30,152 bases of DNA. Source: a virus. A program made the position numbers and the translations under genes. The stretch is from positions 1 through 30,152 of the IMG/VR virus record IMGVR_UViG_3300002231_001581, one strand, 5' to 3'. Shown one piece after another: positions 5,527 to 22,955 of this stretch (within the stretch, counting starts at the first letter, position 1; each line of letters begins with the position of its first letter). The notes beneath the pieces were generated by a model. The model had not been told where the DNA came from and searched no databases. It saw only the letters and a program-made list of their open reading frames with translations.

Positions 5527-6108
5527 ATGGAAAGAGCCCTATTTACAGATGATAAAATCGTAATTTTTGACTTAGAGTTCACTGATTCTAATGAGGGCCT
5601 ACCTGAAATTTTTGAGATAGGCGCCATCAAAGTAGATAGGTCTCTTAATGTTTTATCTACTTATGATACTTTAGTTAAGCCCACTTATTTAGATAAATTT
5701 ACCCTTTATAACACAGAATTATCTTCTATAAATAGAGAAGATTTGGAGTCTTGTGGTAGTTGGCAGGACGTGTGGCGGTCTTTTGCTGCATTTACACATT
5801 TTCAACATTTAAGATTATGTTCCTGGAATGCACCTTCGGATATTTCGGTTTTACGCCAAGCTTATTCCAGTATACATATTGGATTTCCACACAATTATAT
5901 GTGTATAGAGGCTGCTACAGTATTTGATACTGGTGCAGCTTTTTTAGGTTATAGTAAGCAGAGTAACTCTTTGGATAAACTTGCAAAAGATTTTTTAGGG
6001 AAGGAGCAAGTACATAGAGCATTAAAAGATTGCTATTTGATATTGGGACTATTTAACTTTTTATTGCAGGAAGAAACGGACTGTTCCTTCAATTTACTGG
6101 AGTTTTGA
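5527..6108 (+). CDS. DEDDh 3'-5' exonuclease (DnaQ-like)
   Basis: The 193-residue product carries the full DEDDh set: Exo I FDLEFT (D15, E17), Exo II WNAPSDISVL (D105) and Exo III HRALKD (H163, D168). Such enzymes remove nucleotides from DNA or RNA 3' ends using two metal ions, acting as proofreading subunits or free-standing nucleases. It is a single-domain protein with no polymerase attached. I choose the ATG at 5527 over the in-frame TTG at 5470, because the latter lies upstream of the promoter and inside the preceding gene. The ATG has no Shine-Dalgarno sequence and coincides with the predicted transcription start. It is the first gene of the accessory cassette. Substrate and whether it serves replication or defence are unknown. 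Confidence 0.88.
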   Translation: MERALFTDDKIVIFDLEFTDSNEGLPEIFEIGAIKVDRSLNVLSTYDTLVKPTYLDKFTLYNTELSSINREDLESCGSWQDVWRSFAAFTHFQHLRLCSWNAPSDISVLRQAYSSIHIGFPHNYMCIEAATVFDTGAAFLGYSKQSNSLDKLAKDFLGKEQVHRALKDCYLILGLFNFLLQEETDCSFNLLEF

Positions 6109-6110
6109 AA

Positions 6111-6551
6111 GTGCGCTATGATCTTTCGTCTTTATCTTTGGAAGAGCGAGTGTTTTGGCATAGTAGGAGAGTGGAGAAGGAGCTGCCTGCCCATCTTTTT
6201 GTAGAACAATTTGTTTCTGCTTATTCTACTAAGATACTAGAAAATATTTTAGCTCAAGTTAGAAAAGAGCGGGCCTATTTGTCGGTACTTATTTTACTTA
6301 AAAATAACTCTAAATTTTCCGCTCTTTACGTAGAATGTGTTCAGAAGAAGAAGAAACTTAATAAACTTAGTGCTCAGAAATGTACATTACTGTGTGATAA
6401 GATTAAAGGAAAGTTTTTTAATAATCGTAGATTTCAGGCTCTTGAGGGAGAATTGCGGCAAGCAACCAGGGAGTGGGAAAATGTTCGGGGGCAGCTAAGA
6501 GAAATGTGTAAAATTTTGGGTTTAACTTGGGAGCAGTTATATGTGGATTGA
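6111..6551 (+). CDS. Hypothetical helical protein
   Basis: I place the start at GTG 6111, which has GGAG 8 bases upstream, rather than at TTG 6105 where the spacing would be only 2. The 146-residue product is highly charged and almost entirely helical by pattern, with a lysine cluster (QKKKKLNKLSAQK) and likely coiled-coil stretches in the second half. I do not recognise a family. The arrangement of a middle 'IL-charged-F-x-AL' segment resembles the protein at 7722-8213, which could mean distant kinship. It overlaps the next gene by 11 bases and belongs to the promoter-driven cassette. Codons are AT-rich like its neighbours. Confidence 0.65.
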   Translation: MRYDLSSLSLEERVFWHSRRVEKELPAHLFVEQFVSAYSTKILENILAQVRKERAYLSVLILLKNNSKFSALYVECVQKKKKLNKLSAQKCTLLCDKIKGKFFNNRRFQALEGELRQATREWENVRGQLREMCKILGLTWEQLYVD

Positions 6552-6957: not shown

Positions 6958-7322
6958 TGATTATGTTAGATACTTCTTTAAGTGTGCAGGAAAGATTTGA
7001 GTATTTACGTGAGCATCTCCCAGAGGTTGGAGATATTTTAACTTCTAAATATCCTAATGAGAAGATAGGTGTTTTTGTGGAGATTCATCCGGGGGAGGGG
7101 AAAACTTCTAGGATAATGTATGTGCATGCTTTAATAGATAGGGAACGTACTGGATGGTATTTAACTAATAATTCCGGAGGAGTGAAAGTTTTAGTTGCTC
7201 CAAGGTCTCAACAGACTCTTTGTTCTGAGGCATCAGGCAATTTGGAGAATTTACAGGTGCAGGCTGTGCGTGTTTTGAGGCGGAGTCAGAGTGGGAAGGC
7301 TTTAGTTGTTGAGGTGGTCTGA
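6957..7322 (+). CDS. Hypothetical protein, beta-rich C-terminal half
   Basis: The likely start is ATG 6957, whose A is shared with the previous TGA stop (TGATG); GTG 6954 and ATG 6963 are alternatives, and none has a strong ribosome site. The product of about 121 residues has a short helical beginning (VQERFEYLREHLPEVGDIL) then mostly alternating beta-like segments (KIGVFVEIHPGEGKTSRI, GWYLTNN, VQAVRVLRR, ALVVEVV). I recognise no family and no catalytic motif. It ends in a TGATG overlap with the next gene, so the two are probably translated together. Confidence 0.6.
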   Translation: MIMLDTSLSVQERFEYLREHLPEVGDILTSKYPNEKIGVFVEIHPGEGKTSRIMYVHALIDRERTGWYLTNNSGGVKVLVAPRSQQTLCSEASGNLENLQVQAVRVLRRSQSGKALVVEVV

Positions 7323-8217: not shown

Positions 8218-8544
8218 ATGCCGGAAGAAGAAACTGTACAAGATCTTATGGCCTCGTTGCAACAAACTTTTATGGCTGCTGAAGGAAAATTTCAGGTAGC
8301 ATGTGATTCTCCCGGTATACCCAACTTAACTTGGGTTTTGGACATGTTGATACGACATCAACAACGATTGGTACAATTACAGTTACAGGTGATAACGCAC
8401 GAATGCTTTATTGCTGCTTTTAGAGAGTATATTGGGGAAGATGAAGTTTTTATGTCTAAGGTTAAGGAGATGTTGAAAAACGAGGAAGAGAAGTTAGGTA
8501 AAAAATCTTCAGTAATCTTATCGGGGAAGAAGTATGAATCTTAA
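8218..8544 (+). CDS. Hypothetical small helical protein
   Basis: The 108-residue product begins MPEEETVQDLM and is helical throughout, with a Gln-rich middle segment (HQQRLVQLQLQV) and a lysine-rich end. GGAG is about 8 bases upstream of the ATG. It overlaps the next gene by 11 bases, so the two are likely co-translated. There is no membrane segment and no recognised motif. Function unknown. Confidence 0.6.
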   Translation: MPEEETVQDLMASLQQTFMAAEGKFQVACDSPGIPNLTWVLDMLIRHQQRLVQLQLQVITHECFIAAFREYIGEDEVFMSKVKEMLKNEEEKLGKKSSVILSGKKYES

Positions 8545-9409
8545 TGTGTATTACCTTGCTATATCGGGACTCCAGAAGGCAGTTAGAAGAAATTTGGTTG
8601 AGCAAGCGGTGATCTTGGGGAAGATTGCTTGGAATTTGGACAAATTTAGGCTCTATCAGAGAGTGCACACGATTGCATTCGAGGAGTGCGGGACAGATAT
8701 TACAATTCTTGGGTGGCTGTACGAGGAGCGTTTCGGTGCTAAAGAGTGGGATGCACTAGAGTCTTTAATTCGGAGGATGGCACTCTCGGAGCATAAGTGT
8801 AATGAGACCGTAGCATTAAAATTTATCCTCGATTCTCAAGAGGAATTGGTGGATGCAGCAAGTGATGCTAGGTTAATAGAATTACAGGAATTATGGCCTA
8901 CTCACGGATTTTTGGCTTATACTTCCCTGGGATTTCCAGCGGAGGAGGAGTGGCTTTTAGAGCTTTGTGAGAGGAAAAGCTCAGCCGATAGGGAGAAGTT
9001 ACTATGTGGAGTGCCCTATCTTTTTTGGGAGGAAGCAGGTTCGAAGCAGGTGTCAGATTGTGCTAAAGGGTCTCTTTGGCGGGGGCTTATTCCTCTTAGT
9101 GCATTTGATTTCCATACCTCCATTGGAAAATTTGCCATAAAGAGCTTTTATTACGATAGTAGCGAATTCCAAAGCTTGTGCTCTATTGGAGATGCCGGAA
9201 AATTTATTTTTAAGAATGAGGGAATGCTTATAAGTACTCGTAAAGCCTTTAGACTACCTTTAAGGGATTATTATCCTAAGAGTGCTAGGCATATCTCCTC
9301 TTATTCTAACCCGGAGTTTTTTGAGAAACTAAACAAAAAAAGATGCCTGGTTTTCAAGCGAAACTTTTCGGCAGAGTACGAGGAGTTTTCTAAGCATGCT
9401 CCTTGTTAG
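8534..9409 (+). CDS. RarA/MgsA C-terminal-like domain protein
   Basis: The first 65 or so residues (YYLAISGLQKAVRRNLVEQA, then FRLYQRVHTIAFEECG) resemble the C-terminal module of RarA/MgsA-type clamp-loader ATPases, whose typical form is 'ISALHKSIRGSDPDAALYWL... RRLIRIASEDIG'. There is no Walker A or B motif, so the AAA+ engine is absent and this is a stand-alone 291-residue version. The rest is helical, followed by an unassigned C-terminal part with aromatic and basic clusters (FRLPLRDYYPKSARH). RarA acts at stalled replication forks and stabilised DNA ends; a phage homologue lacking ATPase could interact with the host or phage replisome. It lies in the same cassette as the exonuclease. The resemblance is by eye and needs a profile search. 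Confidence 0.42.
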   Translation: MNLNVYYLAISGLQKAVRRNLVEQAVILGKIAWNLDKFRLYQRVHTIAFEECGTDITILGWLYEERFGAKEWDALESLIRRMALSEHKCNETVALKFILDSQEELVDAASDARLIELQELWPTHGFLAYTSLGFPAEEEWLLELCERKSSADREKLLCGVPYLFWEEAGSKQVSDCAKGSLWRGLIPLSAFDFHTSIGKFAIKSFYYDSSEFQSLCSIGDAGKFIFKNEGMLISTRKAFRLPLRDYYPKSARHISSYSNPEFFEKLNKKRCLVFKRNFSAEYEEFSKHAPC

Positions 9410-9424
9410 TCAAATCATATTTTT

Positions 9425-10207
9425 ATGAGTATTTCATATTTAATTCCTGCTTGGAAAAAGCCCTTTATTTATTTGAGACTTGCCTTGGCTAGTCTCAGAT
9501 GTTGGGATAACTGCTCCGAAATAGTGGTAATTGGTAAGAGTTGCCGGGGAGAGGAAGAAGAATATACTAGGTTAATTAAAGAGTATAGTACTACTTTTTA
9601 TGAAGTAGTAAGTATGCCCATTTTTAGTAAGGCGCAGCTTTTGAATGCTGCTTTCAAGAGAAGTAGTGGACAATTTGTGGTTATTTATGACGCAGATTTC
9701 GTGGCTACTGAGAGGTTTGTGGGGTATTTGTTTGAGCATTCTTTTGCTGCGATGAATTACAGCCAGTGTAGGCTTTCCAAGGAAGCTTCAAAGATCCTGC
9801 TTAAAAATTACTATATTGAGGGTTTTCCTGGTGCTTTGCGTAAAAAGTCCTACGGCTCTCCTCCTGTAAAGGGGCTGTATAGTTATGCTTCTACAAGTCC
9901 TCCTACGATATTATCACGGGAGGTGTATGCGGAAATAGGGGGTCTATGTGAGAAGATAGTTGGGTGGGGTTCCGAGGATACTGATTTATGCTGGATGCTT
10001 GAGCAACGTGGATATACACCTAGAAAATACCGAGAAGGAATAAAGGATGCCTTTGTATATCATCTGTGGCACGAGGGCCGGGGAGTGGGGAAGAGGCTAG
10101 CATCTAGTGTTAAAATGCAGAGAAGAAAGAAGATGCTAGCCGGAAAAATTTTACAAGGTAATTTAGAAGACTGGGGTAATTTATGTGTAGTTCCACTTGC
10201 GACATAA
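9425..10207 (+). CDS. Family 2-like glycosyltransferase (GT-A fold)
   Basis: The 260-residue product has a GT-A layout: an N-terminal 'ISYLIPAWKKP' strand, a DxD motif in VVIYDADF (D89, D91) for metal and sugar-nucleotide binding, and a GWGSEDTDLCWML segment (residues 180-192) matching the acceptor-side 'GWGGEDxDL' motif of galactosyltransferase-type (Glyco_transf_7C) enzymes. A basic C-terminal helix follows. It should transfer a sugar from an NDP-sugar to an unknown acceptor. No Shine-Dalgarno sequence is visible before the ATG, unlike most neighbours. An NDP-sugar epimerase at 11852 could supply its donor. Family placement is good; the donor and acceptor are not known. Confidence 0.8.
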   Translation: MSISYLIPAWKKPFIYLRLALASLRCWDNCSEIVVIGKSCRGEEEEYTRLIKEYSTTFYEVVSMPIFSKAQLLNAAFKRSSGQFVVIYDADFVATERFVGYLFEHSFAAMNYSQCRLSKEASKILLKNYYIEGFPGALRKKSYGSPPVKGLYSYASTSPPTILSREVYAEIGGLCEKIVGWGSEDTDLCWMLEQRGYTPRKYREGIKDAFVYHLWHEGRGVGKRLASSVKMQRRKKMLAGKILQGNLEDWGNLCVVPLAT

Positions 10208-10416
10208 TGTATGACAGTGATTTTTTGCATATTTTGCGAAAAATAAATGGTGAAGTTGGCGGGAGGGGGCTAGATAACCGATTGTATATTTCATGTCCAA
10301 AACATCCTGGAGCACCTTCTAAGGTTTATTATGAAGATGGTTCTTTGGTGGTAATTTGTAGTCTGTGCAAGACTAAATATTTGGTGGCAGCCGTGGCTGG
10401 GGGAGAGTCGTCATGA
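10183..10416 (+). CDS. Small zinc-ribbon protein
   Basis: A protein of up to 77 residues with a CPKH at residues 38-41 and CSLC at 59-62, spaced as a zinc ribbon with short beta segments between (SKVYYEDGSLVVICS). Two starts are possible: ATG 10183, with a G-rich stretch upstream but a 25-base overlap with the glycosyltransferase, or ATG 10207, which shares a base with the preceding TAA. It overlaps the following gene by 4 bases. Small zinc ribbons of this kind often bind nucleic acid or serve as protein adaptors; here the role is unknown. Confidence 0.6.
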   Translation: MCSSTCDIMYDSDFLHILRKINGEVGGRGLDNRLYISCPKHPGAPSKVYYEDGSLVVICSLCKTKYLVAAVAGGESS

Positions 10417-11855
10417 GATATTTGCTGCTGCCTCGGATAAAGATTACGGATGGTACGGATAGTTTTACTCTAGATCCTATGAACTTGATTAAGTATTTTT
10501 CGGAATTTGATCCAAATGCCTATTTTTATTTGTGTGTGCACGAGAAACATTGTGAGGATACCTCTTGGATACTTAATTATGGTATTACAGTAGAACAGGC
10601 TAAAAAAATTTGTTTTGTTCCTATGGAGCATTGCTATTTAGGATCGGTGAATCGCTGTGGCCGAAGAGCTTCTTACGGGTATTTGTCTGCACTCGCGGCT
10701 AAAATCGGGCCGAAGGATAGATATGGACAGTACTTGGATGTAGTAATTTCTGAGTCTTTGGTGGGAGTAGAGATATTACGAGCTAAAATAGAGGGCTTAT
10801 GGCAGAAAGGATATACTTATAGGGTGCCTTTTATTGGCTGGGTTCATTGGAATCCTGTTCCTTCTTGGTATACTTCGTATTACAATGAATTTGATGCTTA
10901 TTCTGAGTTAGTAGGAGGGCTATTTTGTGATGGCTTAGTATTTGGGTCATTACGGCAGCAGGATGACTTTTTTACGGAGTATACTAAATTTTTTAACGCT
11001 TCTACTTTGGAACATTTACAAAATAAAAGTATTGCGTCAAATTTGGGGGTGGAAGTAGAAAAAATTAAGAGAAAGAAAGAGTTTTCTGCTCTTCCTACTG
11101 TGTTATGGAGTGGCTATGCATCAGAGGATCTGTCTAGTGTAAAAAAGCCCTTGATTAAACTGGCGGGACTGGGGAAGATTAAGGTGATTTTTCAATTTAT
11201 AGACAAAGACTTGCCCAAAGATGCGGAGGAGGTGCGGGGGCATAAAAATGTAAAAGTAGAAGGCCGGATAGCTCCTTATGGAAAATACTTAGAATTTTTG
11301 AATAAAGCAGACATATTTGTAGCTCTGTCTCAGAATATTAAGCGTTTGACTTATGGTCGGCGTTGGGGGGAGATGATAGCAGCAGGATTGTTGCCTATTG
11401 TATCACGAGATATTGCAGCTACTTTTCTTCCAGAAGAGTACCCTTTTGTGTTAAGTCCTAGGGGAGATTTAGAGGAGCTACTTAGAGCAGCCCTGATGTG
11501 TAAGAAGGCCCAAAAGAAAAGCCTGCTTGATGAAGTATATGCTCATTTAGTAGAGCATCATTTCATTCGGAAAACTTTGAGGCAATTTTATGGGTTTGTG
11601 TGTTCTAAGGTAGCAGAAGCCCGGAAGGGAGTAGATTATGGAGTGCTTGAGGAGTCTTTTGTTGAAGGATTGGGGGGAAGAGCTAAGATAACGCATTCAG
11701 AAGCAGTAGAGGCCGTAGGGCAGTGCATGCAGTCTCCTCTAGGAATAGCGAAGCATTCTATGTACTCTTCTAGGTATATTCGGGCAAGTATTCTTCATCA
11801 GGGGTATTGTGATATTGGCGGGCAGGAGCCTATTTACGTTAGGGCGGAAGCATGA
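10413..11855 (+). CDS. GT-B-like glycosyltransferase with extra C-terminal domain
   Basis: The 480-residue protein has a GT-B-like plan: a variable N-terminal half (acceptor side) and, from about residue 225, a Rossmann-like half beginning PTVLWSGYAS. It ends in YGRRWGEMIAAGLLPIVSRD followed by YPFVLSP, which corresponds to the donor-site region of GT4-type enzymes, where a Glu and 'A-x-G-x-P-V' are conserved. After about residue 424 comes an extra segment (KITHSEAVEAV, then SRYIRASILHQGYCDIGG) that recurs at the end of the protein at 12820-14283. A GGGGGAGAG precedes the start, which overlaps the zinc-ribbon gene. Donor and acceptor are unknown. The enzyme class is inferred from the C-terminal half. 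Confidence 0.65.
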   Translation: MRYLLLPRIKITDGTDSFTLDPMNLIKYFSEFDPNAYFYLCVHEKHCEDTSWILNYGITVEQAKKICFVPMEHCYLGSVNRCGRRASYGYLSALAAKIGPKDRYGQYLDVVISESLVGVEILRAKIEGLWQKGYTYRVPFIGWVHWNPVPSWYTSYYNEFDAYSELVGGLFCDGLVFGSLRQQDDFFTEYTKFFNASTLEHLQNKSIASNLGVEVEKIKRKKEFSALPTVLWSGYASEDLSSVKKPLIKLAGLGKIKVIFQFIDKDLPKDAEEVRGHKNVKVEGRIAPYGKYLEFLNKADIFVALSQNIKRLTYGRRWGEMIAAGLLPIVSRDIAATFLPEEYPFVLSPRGDLEELLRAALMCKKAQKKSLLDEVYAHLVEHHFIRKTLRQFYGFVCSKVAEARKGVDYGVLEESFVEGLGGRAKITHSEAVEAVGQCMQSPLGIAKHSMYSSRYIRASILHQGYCDIGGQEPIYVRAEA

Positions 11856-12823
11856 AAATACTAGTGACCGGCGGTGCGGGGTTTATTGGGTCTCATCTAT
11901 GCAATCGCTTGCACTCTCAGAAGCACGCGGTGGTAGCTTTCGACAATCTTTCGGGGGGAAGGAGGAGTAACTTAAATTCTAAAGTACCTTTAATTGTAGG
12001 AGATATTAGAGACAGGTGTCTGGTAGATAGTTTGGTTGCTGAGCATGAGTTCGATGTAGTTTATCATCTAGCTGCTTATGCGGCGGAGTGTCTTAGTCAC
12101 TGGATACGTTATTACAATTATGAGGTAAATTTGCTTGGAAGTATAAATATTCTAAATGCGTCAATTAAGTATGGCGCCAAGAAATTTATATTTACCTCCA
12201 GTGCCGCTGTTTATGGTGATATTGAGACCCCATTTAAGGAAACAGATACTCCTTGTCCAATCGATCCCTATGGCATAGCCAAGCTGGCTGTCGAGAGAGA
12301 TTTGGCTTGTGCTAATGCTATTTTTGGGTTGGATTATACTATTTTTAGATTGCATAATGTTTTTGGTCCTAGGCAGTCTACCGTAGATAGATACCGTAAT
12401 GTTATCGGTATCTTTATGCACAAGCTTGCTAAAGATAAGCCATTGCCTGTTTTTGGTTCTGGTATGCAAACTAGATGTTTTACTTATATAGATTACGTGA
12501 TTGATGCATTTTTGGCTGTACTTCATAGAGACGTTCAGGCCAGGGTGATTAACCTAGGCTCGGATGAAGAGTGTGCTATAATAGAGCTCGCTAGTAAGAT
12601 GTGTGATATTTCAGGTAAACTACGGCACATGGAATTTTTACCCGCTAGGCATGAAGTACCTGCGGTTAGATGTGATCATTCTTTAGCCTATGCTCTTTTC
12701 GGAGCCCCTACGATTTCTTTTGAAGACGGTTTACGGGAAACGCTGTCTAAAATAGAGACTGGCCAAGTCTCTAAATTTTATGGTTTAGAGCTTACAGAGG
12801 GCTTGCCTGAGAGTTGGAAATGA
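11852..12823 (+). CDS. NAD-dependent sugar-nucleotide epimerase/dehydratase (extended SDR)
   Basis: A complete 323-residue extended short-chain dehydrogenase. It has the dinucleotide-binding TGGAGFIGSH (residues 6-15), DIRD, YHLAA, the FTSSAAVYG serine region and the catalytic YGIAK (Y140, K144), then the RLHNVFGPRQ and FTYIDYVIDAF segments typical of UDP-glucose 4-epimerase relatives. It interconverts or dehydrates an NDP-sugar in the cytoplasm. GalE-like is the closest guess, but the exact substrate cannot be read from sequence. It lies between two related glycosyltransferase-like genes, overlapping both by 4 bases, so it most likely provides their donor sugar. Confidence 0.88.
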   Translation: MKILVTGGAGFIGSHLCNRLHSQKHAVVAFDNLSGGRRSNLNSKVPLIVGDIRDRCLVDSLVAEHEFDVVYHLAAYAAECLSHWIRYYNYEVNLLGSINILNASIKYGAKKFIFTSSAAVYGDIETPFKETDTPCPIDPYGIAKLAVERDLACANAIFGLDYTIFRLHNVFGPRQSTVDRYRNVIGIFMHKLAKDKPLPVFGSGMQTRCFTYIDYVIDAFLAVLHRDVQARVINLGSDEECAIIELASKMCDISGKLRHMEFLPARHEVPAVRCDHSLAYALFGAPTISFEDGLRETLSKIETGQVSKFYGLELTEGLPESWK

Positions 12824-14283
12824 CTAGAGTTTTATACATTCCTCATACATCTTCTCCTGAGAGATTGGTTACTGATCATTGTTATGGTTGGGCTACCTCA
12901 TTCTTTAGGACGTGGTTGGACAAAGAGCCTTATTTGAATTTATATTGGCTCGTTCCTCGGGGTGCTCCTGTAAAACAGCGCGAGGTTTTCTCATGTTTTT
13001 CAGGGAAGGAGTTAAGAGAAAGAGTTAAGTTAATAGAGGTAGATACTAACATTACCCAGGTGCTGGAGCAGTCTACATATCCCCAAGAGTTGATCAGAGA
13101 CTTTAATGCTAATAACGGAAAATACTACTTTGATATTTTATTTTGTGAAAAGCCTAGTATTTTGGGGTGGTTTTTTAACAATGCTGTGATATATGCTTAT
13201 CGAAGGAAGGCGATTACCGTAGTATTAAATGTGCATTATGCAATTAACAGCAAGGATAATATATCAGTAGCTGAGGAGTTTGAGGCGTCTTATTATGCAA
13301 ATGCCGCTTTTGCTAATGCCTATCTTTTCTGTAATGATCCACGTGCTAATATAGATTCTCAATCTAGCTTGGCTCTTCGCTTGAAGAAATATTTTGCTCC
13401 TTCAAAAGTGAGCGATATGTTGGCCAAGCCCAATTGGGTAAAAATAAATTCAGATATTCCTGCTTTACAAAAATTGGCCGAGAAGCGAGATATTTCTGGA
13501 GATGAATTTAGAATTCACTTTGGATTTAGCATAAGTAACTTATTTAATTTCAAAGTGCTCCTGAAGTTTTTCTCTTCTTTTAGAGTGATATTACCGTTGA
13601 AGTGGGTGATTACTACTCCCAGTGGTAGTTTGGGCCGGGGAGGAAAGAAGCCTGAAGAATGGCTGGAAGTGCATTTGGAGTGTCCACGAGAAGAATTTTT
13701 TCGTATAGCTCTGCGGAGTCATTGTTTTGTGTGCTGGCCTTCTGTGTTTAGCTCTGGCTTGAATCACGGAGGAGTAATGGAAATGGCTCGTTTGGGAGTT
13801 GTACCTGTATTTTACAGTAAAGCATTGCCCTGGCCCTGGTTTGAGCTATGGCCTGATTATCCGTTTCAATTTTCGGGAGAAGAGGAGTTAGCTGCTTTAT
13901 TGAAGTATATTAAGGAAAATTTCGGGGGAGAGAGGGTTAAAGAAACAGCAAGAAAAAGTCAAGAAATAATAGATCATGTCTTTGAGGAGAGAGGACACCG
14001 ATTCATTATTGATCAGGTAACTGCTTTACAGGAGAAAGCTCCGAAGTATGCTTATAATGCCTTCTCTGCATTGATACATCATTTTCCTCATAGAATAACA
14101 ATGCGGGATGCGGTGAAGGTTATCAAAGAGGAGTCTGATACTTCTAAAGATTTGGATAAAGTGACGTGGGTAACTTGGTTTAAGACTGGCACAAAGTTGG
14201 ATTTGCGTCAGTATATGTTATCTCATGGCTGGCGGGATATTGGAAACGTAGATAGCGTGGTATTTGAGCGTGTAGATGGTTAA
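12820..14283 (+). CDS. GT-B-like glycosyltransferase with extra C-terminal domain
   Basis: The start at ATG 12820 overlaps the epimerase stop (ATGA); a TTG at 12814 is less likely. The 487-residue protein has a GT-B-like plan, with a segment HCFVCWPSVFSSGLNHGGVM followed by EMARLGVVPVFYSK and YPFQFSGEEELAALL. This aligns by eye with the region FVALSQ ... GEMIAAGLLPIVSRD ... YPFVLSP of the protein at 10413, so the two look like divergent paralogs. The last 63 residues (RITMRDAVKVI ... DLRQYMLSHGWRDIGNVDS) repeat the C-terminal domain of that protein. Substrates are unknown. The pairing around an epimerase suggests successive steps in building one glycan. Confidence 0.6.
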   Translation: MTRVLYIPHTSSPERLVTDHCYGWATSFFRTWLDKEPYLNLYWLVPRGAPVKQREVFSCFSGKELRERVKLIEVDTNITQVLEQSTYPQELIRDFNANNGKYYFDILFCEKPSILGWFFNNAVIYAYRRKAITVVLNVHYAINSKDNISVAEEFEASYYANAAFANAYLFCNDPRANIDSQSSLALRLKKYFAPSKVSDMLAKPNWVKINSDIPALQKLAEKRDISGDEFRIHFGFSISNLFNFKVLLKFFSSFRVILPLKWVITTPSGSLGRGGKKPEEWLEVHLECPREEFFRIALRSHCFVCWPSVFSSGLNHGGVMEMARLGVVPVFYSKALPWPWFELWPDYPFQFSGEEELAALLKYIKENFGGERVKETARKSQEIIDHVFEERGHRFIIDQVTALQEKAPKYAYNAFSALIHHFPHRITMRDAVKVIKEESDTSKDLDKVTWVTWFKTGTKLDLRQYMLSHGWRDIGNVDSVVFERVDG

Positions 14284-14313: not shown

Positions 14314-15063
14314 ATGACTGTTACATCTGACAAAGTAATTCGGGAAGTTGTCATGCTTCCTATTGAGTTACTCCATCCAAATGAATGGAACCCTAACGAG
14401 GAGCCTGCTCACACATTTGATACTCTTGTTGAAGAGATTAAAACTGATGGATTCAAAGATCCTCTTACAGTAGTTCCCGATTTTGCGGAGGAATTTGGAG
14501 AGGGGCATTATATTATAATAGGAGGCGAACATCGTTATCGAGCAGCTAAGGTTCTGAGCTATGAGCAGCTTCCTTGTTATATTGAGGATTCGTGGACTGA
14601 AGAGGAGGCTAAGCTGAAGACAGTTAAGTTGAATCTTTTGCGCGGAGAACTTAATCCGGCTAAGTTTACCAAATTGGTGCATGATCTTGAGCATAGGTAC
14701 GATTTTCAACAGTTGCCGGATTTATTTGGGTTTTTTAGCCTTAAAGATATGGCTAAATTTATGCTTGAGGATAAGAGTAAGAAAGAGAAGACTTTTTTAG
14801 ATGGATTGATGGAAGAGGCCCGGAAGGAGAAGTTTGCAGTAGATTCTTTAACTGATATAGTAGCTACTATTTTTTCTACGTCTGCTGCTACTTTAGACCA
14901 AGACTACCTCTTTTTTACTTATAAAGGGAAAACTCATTTGGTAGTACTTTGTGACAAGACTGTATTTGATACAGTTAAAAAAGTAGTACAGTATCTAGAG
15001 ACTAGTGGTGAGTCTATAAACGAGTTTGTTGGGAATGCTTTGAAGAACGAGTTAGGAAGATAA
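14314..15063 (+). CDS. ParB-like domain protein
   Basis: The 249-residue product starts with a ParB/Srx-type domain: LPIELLHPNEWNPNEE, then a helix EIKTDGFKDPLTVV, and the signature GEHRYRAAK (residues 71-79). In ParB this fold binds CTP and loads DNA clamps; phage versions next to terminase genes are common and are thought to act in packaging or as small nucleases or regulators. The C-terminal 100 residues are helical and unassigned, without the classical ParB HTH. GAGG is 7 bases before the ATG. It directly precedes the small terminase, suggesting a packaging-related role. Confidence 0.8.
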   Translation: MTVTSDKVIREVVMLPIELLHPNEWNPNEEPAHTFDTLVEEIKTDGFKDPLTVVPDFAEEFGEGHYIIIGGEHRYRAAKVLSYEQLPCYIEDSWTEEEAKLKTVKLNLLRGELNPAKFTKLVHDLEHRYDFQQLPDLFGFFSLKDMAKFMLEDKSKKEKTFLDGLMEEARKEKFAVDSLTDIVATIFSTSAATLDQDYLFFTYKGKTHLVVLCDKTVFDTVKKVVQYLETSGESINEFVGNALKNELGR

Positions 15064-15624
15064 ATGGCTGAACTGAGTGAAGCAGAGCTTATTCCTGCTG
15101 AGCATGATGTGAAGATGCGTAAGGCTTATGAATTACATGAGCTGCAAGGAATTCCCGTGTTTTCTATTGCCAAGGCTCTGGGAGTAAGTAAGAGTACGAT
15201 ATATAATTGGTTGCAGGAAAAGAAAAGAGAATTCCGGGAAACTCTAGAAACTCAATCAAAGGCTGATATTATTTCGGAGTCTCTTCAATTCCTTCAAAAT
15301 TTGAAACTGATGGCTTTGTATGAGGCCACTCAGGGAAATCCAGACGAAGATATAGAAGTGGCGAAGTCTGGTCTCGTAAAAAGAAAGAAGTCTGATTATA
15401 AGAGGAAGCTAGATTTTTGGATTTTGGCTAAGAATATTGAAGGTATGAAGCTGGACTTAATGAAAGACACAGGTATTTTGCCTAAGGTTTTAGAGCATAT
15501 TTATAGAACTATTTCCGAGGAGAGGATGGAAGCTTCTACTGTAGAAGTGGAATCTGAGAGGTCTGAGGAGGAGATTCAAGAGAGTATTATACGTCTCTTA
15601 TCTTCTACGAGGAGTCTTGTGTAA
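15064..15624 (+). CDS. terS: Terminase small subunit
   Basis: The 186-residue protein has an N-terminal helix-turn-helix (about residues 30-51, VFSIAKALGVSKSTIYNWLQ), a charged middle coiled-coil region and an acidic Glu-rich C-terminal tail. This is the usual build of a small terminase, which binds the packaging site and recruits the large subunit. It starts immediately after the ParB-like stop and shares a base with the large terminase start (TAATG). AGGAAG precedes the ATG. The call rests on layout plus position, since the subunit is poorly conserved. Confidence 0.75.
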   Translation: MAELSEAELIPAEHDVKMRKAYELHELQGIPVFSIAKALGVSKSTIYNWLQEKKREFRETLETQSKADIISESLQFLQNLKLMALYEATQGNPDEDIEVAKSGLVKRKKSDYKRKLDFWILAKNIEGMKLDLMKDTGILPKVLEHIYRTISEERMEASTVEVESERSEEEIQESIIRLLSSTRSLV

Positions 15625-17297
15625 TGACGGTTGAACTTTTGCGCGACCTAACTAAGCGAGAACTTGTTCGAGCAGAGAGGTTAGTACGTATACGCAAAAA
15701 ACGCTTAGACTTTGCTCTCGATTGTCATATAAACAGCCGGGGAGAGAAGTTAAATTTCAAAGATTATCCACATATTAGACAGTTATACGAAAGTACTGCT
15801 CCTAACATTGTTTTGCAGGGAGCTGTTCAATCTTTCAAAAGTGAGTGGGCCATTGTAGACCATTTTGCAGCAGCTTTTACAGGGTTATCTGTTTTTTACA
15901 TAGTGCCCAAATATGAAATTCGGACTACCTATGTGCAAAACAGAATAAATAAGGTGGTAGAAAATGTGCATGAGTATAAGAGCATTGTAGGAGCAGGTTT
16001 TTTTGATTCAGTGGCCTTGAAGTCATTTGGAAGAGGCACGATTAAGTACGTGGCTGCTTCGGTTATAAGTGATATGAAGGAATTTCCTGCTGATGCTCTA
16101 TATGTTGATGAAGTGGATCAATGCAATGCAGACAATGTGCATTATGCCGTAGACCGCTTGATGGCCTCGCCTTATAAGTTTAAGCGTTACTTGGGGAATC
16201 CTACGATAAAAAATCGGGGAATAAATGCCCTGTTTTTAGACTCTAATCAGCAAGAATGGCATTTCAAGTGTCCTTGGTGTGGGAAACCTGTAGAGGCTTC
16301 ATGGTTTGATTCAGTTGTACAAGAAGTATATGATAAAAGTGGAAATGTTTCAGATTACATTTTACGGGATACTGAGTGGGAACCTGGATGTGGCAGGGAT
16401 ATTTATTTGATTTGTATTCAATGTAATGGAGCAGTTGATCGGGGAGATTTTCGGGGGGAGTGGATTTCTAAAGGGGAGGGCGGTTTAGAGGGATATCATA
16501 TTTCAATGTTATGTAGTTCTCTTAATAGCATTGCTGGTATGTGGAGTCGTTTTAAGAAGGCTTTATACACTCCTCTTAGATTACAACAGTTCTATAATTC
16601 TGATTTGGGATTGCCTTATTCTGCTGCGGGTAGTAAGGTTACTCTGGATGTATTGTTAAATTGTGTTGAGCCTTCTTACAAAGTTTTGATTTTTGATGAT
16701 TATGCTTGTATTGCAGATGATGCCCATGTTGGGCCTTGTAGTATGGGAGTAGATGTTGGAGCTAACTTTGATGTGCGTATTTCTTATATAGAACCCCGTG
16801 GTCAGCGTCGTTTGGTATACGTAGGGAAATTTCCAGTAAAAAATCCTGAGATTATTCAGGATTTAGTAGAAAGATATAATGTTGTTTGTTGTGTAATGGA
16901 TGCTATGCCTGAATCGGCATTAGTACAGGATTTACAGGAAAAGCTGCCTTGTGATACTTGGTTGTGCACTTATAGAGGGGCGGGAAGGGGGACTAAGAGG
17001 AAATATGATAATATTAGTAAAATAATTGGAATAGACCGTACTGAGGCCCTTGACAGGTCCTATGCGGATATGGTAAAAAGATATAATATATTACCTGCTA
17101 ATTTTGAGGCTATGTTGGGGGGAACTTATGTAAATGAGCTTTGTGCTTCAGTAAGAGAAGTAATAGAAGATTCTAATGGCGCCTTTAGGTATGAATGGTC
17201 TAAGGGAGTAGATCATCATTTTCATGCTGATACGTATGATAGATTAGCAGCAGAAATGCTTACGGATTCCGTGTTATCGGATGTGGTAGTTGCCTAA
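15624..17297 (+). CDS. terL: Terminase large subunit (GpA-like, with zinc ribbon)
   Basis: The 557-residue motor protein has a deviant Walker A (QGAVQSFKS, residues 65-73), a Walker B ALYVDEVD (D162, E163) and RNase H-like nuclease residues in GVDVG (D377), CVMDAMPE (D426) and HFHADTYD (D536). Between the two domains is a Cys4 insertion (CPWC at 216-219, CIQC at 264-267) as found in lambda GpA-type large terminases. It pumps DNA into the prohead and cuts concatemers. GAGGAG precedes the start. Length is somewhat short for GpA (about 640) but all catalytic elements are present, so it should be functional. Confidence 0.93.
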   Translation: MTVELLRDLTKRELVRAERLVRIRKKRLDFALDCHINSRGEKLNFKDYPHIRQLYESTAPNIVLQGAVQSFKSEWAIVDHFAAAFTGLSVFYIVPKYEIRTTYVQNRINKVVENVHEYKSIVGAGFFDSVALKSFGRGTIKYVAASVISDMKEFPADALYVDEVDQCNADNVHYAVDRLMASPYKFKRYLGNPTIKNRGINALFLDSNQQEWHFKCPWCGKPVEASWFDSVVQEVYDKSGNVSDYILRDTEWEPGCGRDIYLICIQCNGAVDRGDFRGEWISKGEGGLEGYHISMLCSSLNSIAGMWSRFKKALYTPLRLQQFYNSDLGLPYSAAGSKVTLDVLLNCVEPSYKVLIFDDYACIADDAHVGPCSMGVDVGANFDVRISYIEPRGQRRLVYVGKFPVKNPEIIQDLVERYNVVCCVMDAMPESALVQDLQEKLPCDTWLCTYRGAGRGTKRKYDNISKIIGIDRTEALDRSYADMVKRYNILPANFEAMLGGTYVNELCASVREVIEDSNGAFRYEWSKGVDHHFHADTYDRLAAEMLTDSVLSDVVVA

Positions 17298-20766: not shown

Positions 20767-21765
20767 ATGCCTATTGACATCAAACTTCCTTTGGAAGAGA
20801 TGGTCAGTAAGTCAGCTATCGATGCTACTTCCTTGCCTAATTCTATTTTGAATCGGCAACAAGTATTAAGATTTATTGACTTGGTGATTGACTACTCTGT
20901 TCTGTTGAAGCGAATTAGAGTAGAGAAAGTTAATGCTCCAAAAGGCGAGCGGGCTAAGTTGGATCTTGGTAATATTGTTACTGAGGGTGCTAGCACTACG
21001 AGCATAGCAACTACACGCACGCCTACTGAAGCGGTAGTTTCCTATGATCTTGTGAAGTACCGAAGTGCTTTTGATCTTCGCACCGATTTCTTAGAAGATT
21101 CGATTGAAAAGGCGCAGGCTCGTGATACGATTCTCAATATGTTTACAAAACGTATTGCGATCGACAGTGAGCTTGCTGCTATTCAAAGTGATAATTCCTT
21201 GACAGTCGGTGACGGTCAGACTGATAGCAACAATTTGCTTGGAGTGAATGACGGATTCACTCAAACTTTGGTTGATAATGTTCCGTCAGCTCAGCAGATT
21301 GATGCGGCGGGAGCTGCTCCTTCTACGGCATTGTATTATGCTATGAAGAGAGCAGTTCCTGCTCGTTTTAGAGTTGCTAAGCCTGATTATGTTTGGATTG
21401 CTCCTTCGGGACCCGCTGATAAGCACTTGCTTGATTGGTCAACTAGAGCTACTGGAGGTGGCGATGTTGCCTATGAGACTGGTTTGCGTCCTGGACCGTG
21501 GGGTATAAAAATGCTTGAAGTTCCTTTGATGCCTGAAGATTTGTCTTATGGCACATCTGGAACTGATGGCTCTCAAATCTGGCTCTCGCCTTTGAAAAAC
21601 TTTGTGTATTTCATTGGACGCGCGGTTACAATCGAATGGAGCCGTGAGCCTCGTCAGGACATGTGGCAATCTACTATTCATTACCGTGTTGACTTTGAGA
21701 TAGAAGATCCGAATATGGTAGTTATCGCTAAGAACGTTGCTATGTCTGGGAGTGACTATAGCTAG
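20767..21765 (+). CDS. Major capsid protein
   Basis: The 332-residue protein has features of an HK97-fold capsid subunit: an N-arm and first helix (LNRQQVLRFIDLVIDYS), a beta hinge with TEAVVSYDLVKYRSAFDLR, a spine-like helix (IEKAQARDTILNMFTKRIAI) and a final P-domain strand with TIEWSREPRQDMWQSTIHYR. GGAG is upstream of the ATG. Position after the protease is decisive. Its G+C is clearly higher than its flanks (about 48 percent in two lines counted by hand) with more CGN arginine codons, as expected for a highly expressed gene. There is no long cleavable N-terminal domain, so the scaffold is probably supplied by the protease fusion. Confidence 0.88.
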   Translation: MPIDIKLPLEEMVSKSAIDATSLPNSILNRQQVLRFIDLVIDYSVLLKRIRVEKVNAPKGERAKLDLGNIVTEGASTTSIATTRTPTEAVVSYDLVKYRSAFDLRTDFLEDSIEKAQARDTILNMFTKRIAIDSELAAIQSDNSLTVGDGQTDSNNLLGVNDGFTQTLVDNVPSAQQIDAAGAAPSTALYYAMKRAVPARFRVAKPDYVWIAPSGPADKHLLDWSTRATGGGDVAYETGLRPGPWGIKMLEVPLMPEDLSYGTSGTDGSQIWLSPLKNFVYFIGRAVTIEWSREPRQDMWQSTIHYRVDFEIEDPNMVVIAKNVAMSGSDYS

Positions 21766-21818: not shown

Positions 21819-22955
21819 ATGTTTAACTATATATCTGATATGAAAGAGCCTGCGAATCATTACTTTGAGGGAGCAACTTCTGTTTGTGCTAAATGTTTTG
21901 GTGGAGTAGGAGATGTCCTGATTTCAATTGGAAGTACTGCTGCTAAATATGGAAATATTACTGCTGCGGTTAAGCCTAGTCAGTACGAACTTATTAAGCA
22001 TATTGAGGGAGTTAATGAAGTTATCTCAGTAACTGAGTTAAACTCTCCTGAAGTTAGAAGTAAGTATGATGTTCTGATAAATTTTGACTTCACTTTTAAT
22101 ACTCTGAAGACTCTAAAGGGAGAAGATTATTATACTTTAGTGGCACGAAAATTGGGCGAAGATACGGTTACTCCGGGAAAACTTTTAGCACAGAAATGTC
22201 AGACAGAGCTTATTGCTGCTATTCATCCGAGTGCTAGTAATCCTAACAGATTGTGGAAAGACAGTAGATGGGATCAGGTTGCTTATCATTTAGCTTCCTG
22301 TGGATTGGATGTAGTTTGGTTAGGTACGAAAGATGAATATGGTTTTAATGATTATACTAATGGAATTTACTGTTTGAGTGATACGACTGAAGATTTATTG
22401 GGACAAGTCCAGTTTTTAGCTAAATGTTCTTACTTTTTGGGAGTAGATTCTGGTTTTGCTCATGTTGCGGGACTTCTAGGCGTGCCGGGTAAAGTACTAT
22501 TCTTTAATACTGAAGCAAGACATGTGATAGCTCGGTATTCTACTTTATTTGGAATAGATGCCTATAAAGGGGAAGTTCCTACTAGAAGTCTTGATCCAGA
22601 AGATAAGTTTTCTAGAAAGTATGCTAAAGACCTTTCTGTAGATGATGTTATTGATGAGTTACCTTTTCAACCACGAGAAGAGAGGGCTAAGTTAATTAGA
22701 CTTGCGAAGAAAAAAGGTAGGCATGTTGTTCATGTTTCTGGAGATGGAGAAAGAAACAATAAGTGTATTCGATACTTACAGAAATATTTTGATCTTGTAG
22801 ATGGTTATAGTGATAAAGGAGTGAATCTTATCTTTGGCTTAGACGAGTGTGTTTTAGACAGCCCTAGCTGTAGTGCTCGCGTACAGGCTGATGAGCCTGA
22901 GAAAGTTAGATATGCTATAAGAGAGTTTTTTGCTATGGGAGATATTGATGGCTAG
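21819..22955 (+). CDS. Glycosyltransferase family 9 (heptosyltransferase-like)
   Basis: The 378-residue product has GT-B features of family 9: an N-terminal glycine-rich GGVGDVLISIGS (the 'GDxL' motif), IHPSASNPNRLWKDSRWDQV, and the donor-site block YFLGVDSGFAHVAGLLGVPG. Family members add heptose or related sugars to lipopolysaccharide core and to some proteins. Two starts are possible, ATG 21819 or ATG 21840, neither with a ribosome site. The last 75 residues are an extra, unassigned module. Location between the capsid and a probable decoration gene is unusual and suggests capsid- or virion-directed use, though cargo is also possible. Donor and acceptor are unknown. Confidence 0.8.
   Translation: MFNYISDMKEPANHYFEGATSVCAKCFGGVGDVLISIGSTAAKYGNITAAVKPSQYELIKHIEGVNEVISVTELNSPEVRSKYDVLINFDFTFNTLKTLKGEDYYTLVARKLGEDTVTPGKLLAQKCQTELIAAIHPSASNPNRLWKDSRWDQVAYHLASCGLDVVWLGTKDEYGFNDYTNGIYCLSDTTEDLLGQVQFLAKCSYFLGVDSGFAHVAGLLGVPGKVLFFNTEARHVIARYSTLFGIDAYKGEVPTRSLDPEDKFSRKYAKDLSVDDVIDELPFQPREERAKLIRLAKKKGRHVVHVSGDGERNNKCIRYLQKYFDLVDGYSDKGVNLIFGLDECVLDSPSCSARVQADEPEKVRYAIREFFAMGDIDG

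Follow-up and report, generated by a model that had tools for sequence, protein, structure and literature searches.

A predicted winged-helix-like C-terminal domain shared by two phage GT-B glycosyltransferases encoded beside a ParB-like protein

Introduction

Phage T4 encodes alpha- and beta-glucosyltransferases that glucosylate hydroxymethylcytosine. The enzymes described here are like them only in the outcome that we propose, a sugar on DNA acting against host nucleases; in contrast to the T4 system, no hydroxymethylase candidate was detected in the 11 named complete phages that carry enzymes of the present type. To our knowledge, neither T4 enzyme has a separate appended winged helix. MshA, BshA and PglA (GT-B, Glycos_transf_1) have the same catalytic fold as one of the proteins studied here (GT2), but these solved enzymes comprise about 370-395 residues and are without a winged-helix tail.

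Closer counterparts are the glycosyltransferases of Arthrobacter phage Kitkat (gp88 and gp93), DanielleIgnace (gp97), Stenotrophomonas phage DLP3 (gp102), RcDurkin (gp21) and JP1_004, which belong to PHROG 30253 and 28978. Like the two proteins of this study, GT1 and GT2, they combine a GT-B core with a GxxD-containing C-terminal tail and have a ParB-like gene close by; nucleotide-sugar genes are found near several of them, as in our locus. Their records, as far as examined, annotate them only as glycosyltransferase or hypothetical and do not describe the tail.

Results

Organization of the locus

The stretch of DNA analysed (the window) is a 30,152-base IMG/VR virus record, a fragment of a tailed phage. 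GT1 and GT2 are separated by a nucleotide-sugar gene and followed by a ParB-like gene and the terminase genes:

8534-9409, + strand: protein recurring in the same cassette (BLASTP E=5e-6 to KarBoss protein L012:1980-3101)
9425-10207, + strand: GT-A-type glycosyltransferase (PF02709, E=7.5e-6)
10413-11855, + strand: GT1, 480 amino acids
10413-11621, + strand: catalytic part of GT1 (E=2.5e-13 with the HMM of cores of other phages; weak match to phrog_28978, E=1.8e-4)
11622-11852, + strand: predicted winged-helix-like C-terminal tail of GT1, residues 404-480, including the segment first noted (11685-11855)
11852-12823, + strand: NDP-sugar epimerase/dehydratase between GT1 and GT2 (PF01370, E=2.9e-55)
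12820-14283, + strand: GT2, 487 amino acids
12820-14040, + strand: GT-B catalytic part of GT2 (core HMM, E=1e-28; Foldseek matches to GT-B enzymes)
14041-14280, + strand: predicted winged-helix-like C-terminal tail of GT2, residues 408-487 (tail HMM, E=6.5e-4)
14314-15063, + strand: ParB-like protein, conserved neighbour of the glycosyltransferase (PF02195, E=2e-8; phrog_26387, E=3e-41)
15064-15624, + strand: putative terminase small subunit with HTH (phrog_2538, E=1.4e-5)
15624-17297, + strand: terminase large subunit (phrog_675, E=4e-73)

The epimerase resembles one in the cassette of Rhizobium phage TM16 (E=3e-13), and the KarBoss relative of the 8534-9409 protein is encoded upstream of the KarBoss glycosyltransferase. 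Pfam and NCBIfam searches with the 8534-9409 protein gave no match; it resembles what we take to be a stand-alone RarA/MgsA C-terminal region, and a short IP..A.D.HT.IG stretch is common to it and TM16. The sequence of the GT-A-type enzyme has no tail of the GT1/GT2 type. Directly upstream of GT1, a small ORF (10208-10415) encodes paired Cys/His residues (CPKH...CSLC) that appear zinc-ribbon-like by eye; at one related locus, L026, a larger Cys-rich protein (5755-6435) is encoded directly upstream of the glycosyltransferase. A further glycosyltransferase gene of the window (21819-22955), GT9/heptosyltransferase-like (PF01075, E=1e-8), directly follows the probable major capsid gene (20767-21765).

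GT1 and GT2 share a C-terminal domain

The original prediction, made from the sequence of the window, held that GT1 and GT2 end in a common domain. Both segments were found in place and with the letters given: residues 425-480 of GT1 (11685-11852) read KITHSEAV...SRYIRASILHQGYCDIGGQEPIYVRAEA, and the C-terminal end of GT2 reads RITMRDAV...KLDLRQYMLSHGWRDIGNVDSVVFERVDG. Each segment forms the central part of a larger C-terminal winged-helix-like domain, which extends about 20 residues further towards the N-terminus than had been proposed (about residues 404-480 in GT1 and 408-487 in GT2).

Taken alone, the pairwise similarity of the two tails is marginal. BLASTP gave no match in the tails. Smith-Waterman comparison with shuffled tails gave p values of 0.003-0.009 for hand-picked tails and 0.04-0.13 for longer segments. 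We then used a matrix and profiles of tails and cores constructed without either window protein. With a 26-column matrix derived from 25 other phage glycosyltransferase tails, from which the most divergent ones (VH2 and V-YDF132) were left out, the GT2 tail ranked first and the GT1 tail fourth among 17,978 positions in the ORFs of the window. An initial tail HMM, whose alignment was poor, detected neither of the window tails. An HMM of eight tails from other phages, searched against 3,998 proteins, gave E=6.5e-4 for GT2 and E=1.7 for GT1; when GT2 was added, GT1 became the best match outside the existing family members (E=0.12), and this match fell on the tail. By sequence, therefore, the GT2 tail is significant, whereas the GT1 tail judged by tail sequence alone is marginal, and GT1 was joined to the tailed family because of its core (below) and its modelled tail fold.

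That the two tails are alike by chance would agree with pairwise statistics that vary with the choice of segment and with the E value of GT1 against the profile lacking GT2. The ranks obtained with the independent matrix, the membership of both cores in one family, the same modelled topology and a best viral fold match of the GT1 tail to a Kitkat glycosyltransferase make this exceedingly improbable. Profile, core and model evidence agree on a common C-terminal domain.

Direct searches of 50,697 phage records and IMG/VR with either glycosyltransferase or either tail yielded no matches or chance matches. A search seeded with the alignment of the two tails, which had been suggested as a check, likewise returned no confirmed match.

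The catalytic cores belong to one tail-bearing family

GT1 and GT2 showed no Pfam match and no meaningful NCBIfam match. An HMM of tail-free cores detected both, GT2 at 1e-28 and GT1 at 2.5e-13. Because the two proteins are both matched by a profile free of the tail, they are distant relatives within a single family, and the tail is ancestral to it. Transfer of a module between two unrelated enzymes is thereby ruled out. As judged from these comparisons, the tail is an inherited architecture of a phage GT-B glycosyltransferase family and is carried throughout it.

A Glycos_transf_1 match was obtained for 12 of the 22 aligned family members. The alignment contains only two invariant columns, one of which is the Asp of G[WYF]xD in the tail (D467 in GT1, D473 in GT2); apart from a few positions, the tail is strongly divergent. 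In Foldseek searches the modelled core of GT2 matched GT-B enzymes including MshA, BshA and PglA (E 1e-6 to 1e-9), and also plant UGTs. The E-x7-E motif of GT4-like retaining GT-B glycosyltransferases is incomplete in both proteins: the second Glu is kept (E320 in GT1, E321 in GT2), but the first, which most relatives retain (EDFS...E), most Kitkat/DLP3-type enzymes among them, is absent. The catalytic mechanism of GT1 and GT2 may differ.

Predicted fold of the tail

In a full-length AlphaFold2 model of GT2 (mean pLDDT 76.9), the GT-B core extends to about residue 406 and is followed by helices and strands at H410-421, E425-427, H428-438, H451-468, E471-473 and E481-484; residues 440-458 are of low confidence (pLDDT below 50). 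The GT1 tail, modelled separately with AlphaFold2 (mean pLDDT 77), showed H6-17, E22-24, H25-36, H50-59, E62-64 and E71-74. The order of elements in both tail models is a1-b1-a2-a3-b2-b3, that of a winged helix with the wing between b2 and b3, although the models rest on 21-22 divergent sequences with common relatives in the alignments and are not fully independent. The modelled tails of GT1 and GT2 thus agree in order rather than showing unrelated folds, and they lie outside the GT-B core rather than forming an integral part of it.

Foldseek comparison of the GT1 tail with the PDB returned mostly winged-helix domains, among them YcaQ/AlkX, forkhead proteins, MukE-MukF, Rok, the cullin WHB domain and BlaI (E 0.13-0.7, TM about 0.5-0.6). 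No PDB match was individually significant (best E=0.13, none with E<0.001), no Pfam wHTH family matched the tails above the cut-off, and the tail profile, run against PDB sequences, had no significant match. These proteins are like the tail model in the order of elements and overall shape, with no sequence relationship. Of the two folds suggested for the tail, a small winged-helix unit agrees with both models and with most of the neighbours; a ribbon-helix was ruled out by the modelled order. On the basis of the models, the tail is winged-helix-like by topology, which means likeness of fold, not demonstrated homology to known winged helices.

Among viral structures (BFVD), the best match to the GT1 tail was the 501-residue glycosyltransferase of phage Kitkat (A0A140G6R4, probability 1.00, E=7e-3); lower matches were a glycosyltransferase of BeatusComedenti, a relative of Kitkat, and several DNA-binding proteins.

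The tail could be a structural or oligomerisation element of the enzyme family with no role in targeting. Within the material examined, it always occurs at the C-terminus of family glycosyltransferases and on nothing else, and a proposed check for the tail on other kinds of protein turned up none. The sequence divergence would fit the same explanation, as would the approximately neutral net charge of both tails, which also counts against docking on DNA but is by itself uninformative on DNA binding. We nevertheless consider a purely structural role distinctly unlikely, since the models show a separate winged-helix order and the GT-B enzymes matched by the core model, MshA and BshA, manage without such an element.

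Conserved association with a ParB-like gene

A weak tblastn match (E 0.1-0.4) led to the glycosyltransferases of two named phages, VH2_2019 of Vibrio and DanielleIgnace of Arthrobacter; in both, a ParB-like gene directly follows the enzyme gene, as it does after GT2. Using the ParB-like protein as bait, we found relatives in named phages of Arthrobacter, Rhodobacter, Stenotrophomonas, Agrobacterium and Vibrio, and the glycosyltransferase search added Rhizobium; carriers of the tailed family thus occur among phages of six host genera. In IMG/VR, 36 loci with a ParB relative were recovered. A terminase-bait search of IMG/VR gave no match. Of the full-length glycosyltransferases encoded beside ParB, nearly all carry a related tail at the C-terminus. 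For 31 loci with a ParB relative, 1.8 kb or more of upstream sequence was available; 22 of these have a glycosyltransferase gene within 3 kb upstream, and L048 has one just downstream. Some ParB relatives (L028, L030, L041 and L043) had no glycosyltransferase; the occurrence of the ParB-like gene without the enzyme counts against docking on DNA.

The named Vibrio, Stenotrophomonas, Rhodobacter (RcDurkin), Agrobacterium and Rhizobium phages have the same gene order: sugar genes that vary, the glycosyltransferase, the ParB-like gene, a small terminase candidate and the terminase. The sugar genes recurring before the glycosyltransferase, in varying sets, encode a PIG-L deacetylase, a WbqC-like protein, an epimerase, an aminotransferase and a methyltransferase. 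In the Arthrobacter phages, the glycosyltransferase and ParB genes are together and the annotated terminase gene is not adjoining. At locus L026, the glycosyltransferase gene is surrounded by ParB, a DNA methyltransferase gene and genes that by eye look RuvC-like and clamp-like, and the listed stretch is without sugar genes.

Nucleotide-sugar genes in the cassettes would also be expected if the enzyme altered a host polysaccharide, as proposed by the authors who annotated the DLP3 glycosyltransferase as RfaB-like (PMC7326821). We regard modification of the host surface as very improbable: the link to ParB and terminase recurs in phages of hosts as unlike as Arthrobacter and Vibrio, and there is no annotated flippase or polymerase in the cassettes seen.

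Two further observations were made at these loci. The glycosyltransferase gene at L020:5920-7299 contains an in-frame TAG at 6991-6993; the tail is encoded past it, where the frame continues open. DLP3, one of the cassette phages, has a tRNA gene with a CTA anticodon (L069:9181-9254), and a suppressor tRNA is reported in the papers on DLP5 and Summit, which makes amber readthrough a possibility for phages of this group. In Arthrobacter phage Mufasa8 (L013), a distant ParB-like relative is encoded inside a 7-deazaguanine-type cluster (queuine tRNA-ribosyltransferase, QueC, QueD and GTP cyclohydrolase), another link between a ParB-like protein and DNA modification.

Possible DNA modification in carrier phages

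The cassette is present in both DLP3 and DLP5. DLP3 DNA resisted all 15 restriction enzymes used (PMC7326821), and DLP5 DNA resisted 32 of 36, the other four cutting it (PMC5834331). This is correlated evidence from two close relatives, not proof. The genes common to at least five carriers are ParB, portal, capsid, terminase, tail and replication or recombination genes, along with several whose function is not known; none was recognised as coding for a known base-modification enzyme. ThyA-type hydroxymethylase and QueC families were absent from 11 named complete carriers; a search for hydroxymethylation or deazaguanine synthesis as the origin of the acceptor gave no candidate in these phages. 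ThyA was matched only in a 178-kb relative, where it looks like an ordinary thymidylate synthase and was discarded as a hydroxymethylase. ThyX relatives were found in some carriers only, and a Tet_JBP search of the carriers was without a match, with a control that was likewise silent. With no hydroxymethylase or QueC candidate, the resistance of DLP3 and DLP5 could have another cause.

That no acceptor pathway on DNA was found would also agree with glycosylation of virion proteins. Under this explanation, the enzyme would decorate capsid or tail proteins and the tail would bind capsid, terminase or the ParB-like protein. Packaging and structural genes adjoin the cassette, the recurring deacetylase, aminotransferase, methyltransferase and WbqC-like genes are equally expected for a protein-linked glycan, and winged helices that bind protein exist (cullin WHB). 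Against it stand the ParB-like neighbour, which points to DNA, the DNA-gene context at L026 and the restriction-resistant DNA of DLP3 and DLP5. We treat virion-protein glycosylation as a serious rival, if a rather unlikely one.

Discussion

Our tentative preference, held at a little short of even confidence, is that the tail docks on DNA or on a partner and belongs to a glycosyltransferase that modifies phage DNA. Docking is favoured because winged helices usually bind nucleic acid or protein, because ParB-like and packaging genes are neighbours, and because DLP3 and DLP5 DNA is resistant; among the fold neighbours of the tail are winged helices that bind DNA (forkhead, Rok, BlaI) and one that binds protein (cullin WHB). 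DNA as the target and the tail as the docking part are both inferred. The tail would bring the transferase to phage DNA, or to a ParB-like or packaging partner sitting on DNA, and dock it there; the neighbouring nucleotide-sugar enzymes would supply the sugar to be put on phage DNA; its addition might be timed to replication or packaging; and the sugar would block host nucleases. The broader proposition of a widespread, undescribed phage DNA-glycosylation system, made up of a winged-helix GT-B enzyme, a dedicated ParB-like protein and terminase and putting amino sugars on phage DNA by a route independent of known hydroxymethyl-base synthesis, seems doubtful to us.

A literature search, which omitted most subscription and non-commercial-licence papers, turned up no account of a phage glycosyltransferase with a winged-helix tail, and the novelty of the architecture is provisional. 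A conserved domain of nucleic-acid-binding type on a sugar transferase ties the sugar cassettes of phages to their DNA in a concrete way that can be tested. Tailed glycosyltransferases could account for restriction resistance of the DLP3/DLP5 type despite the missing base-modification genes of known kinds. The C-terminal GxxD tail together with the ParB-like neighbour provides a sequence mark that separates these glycosyltransferases from those acting on host-surface sugars.
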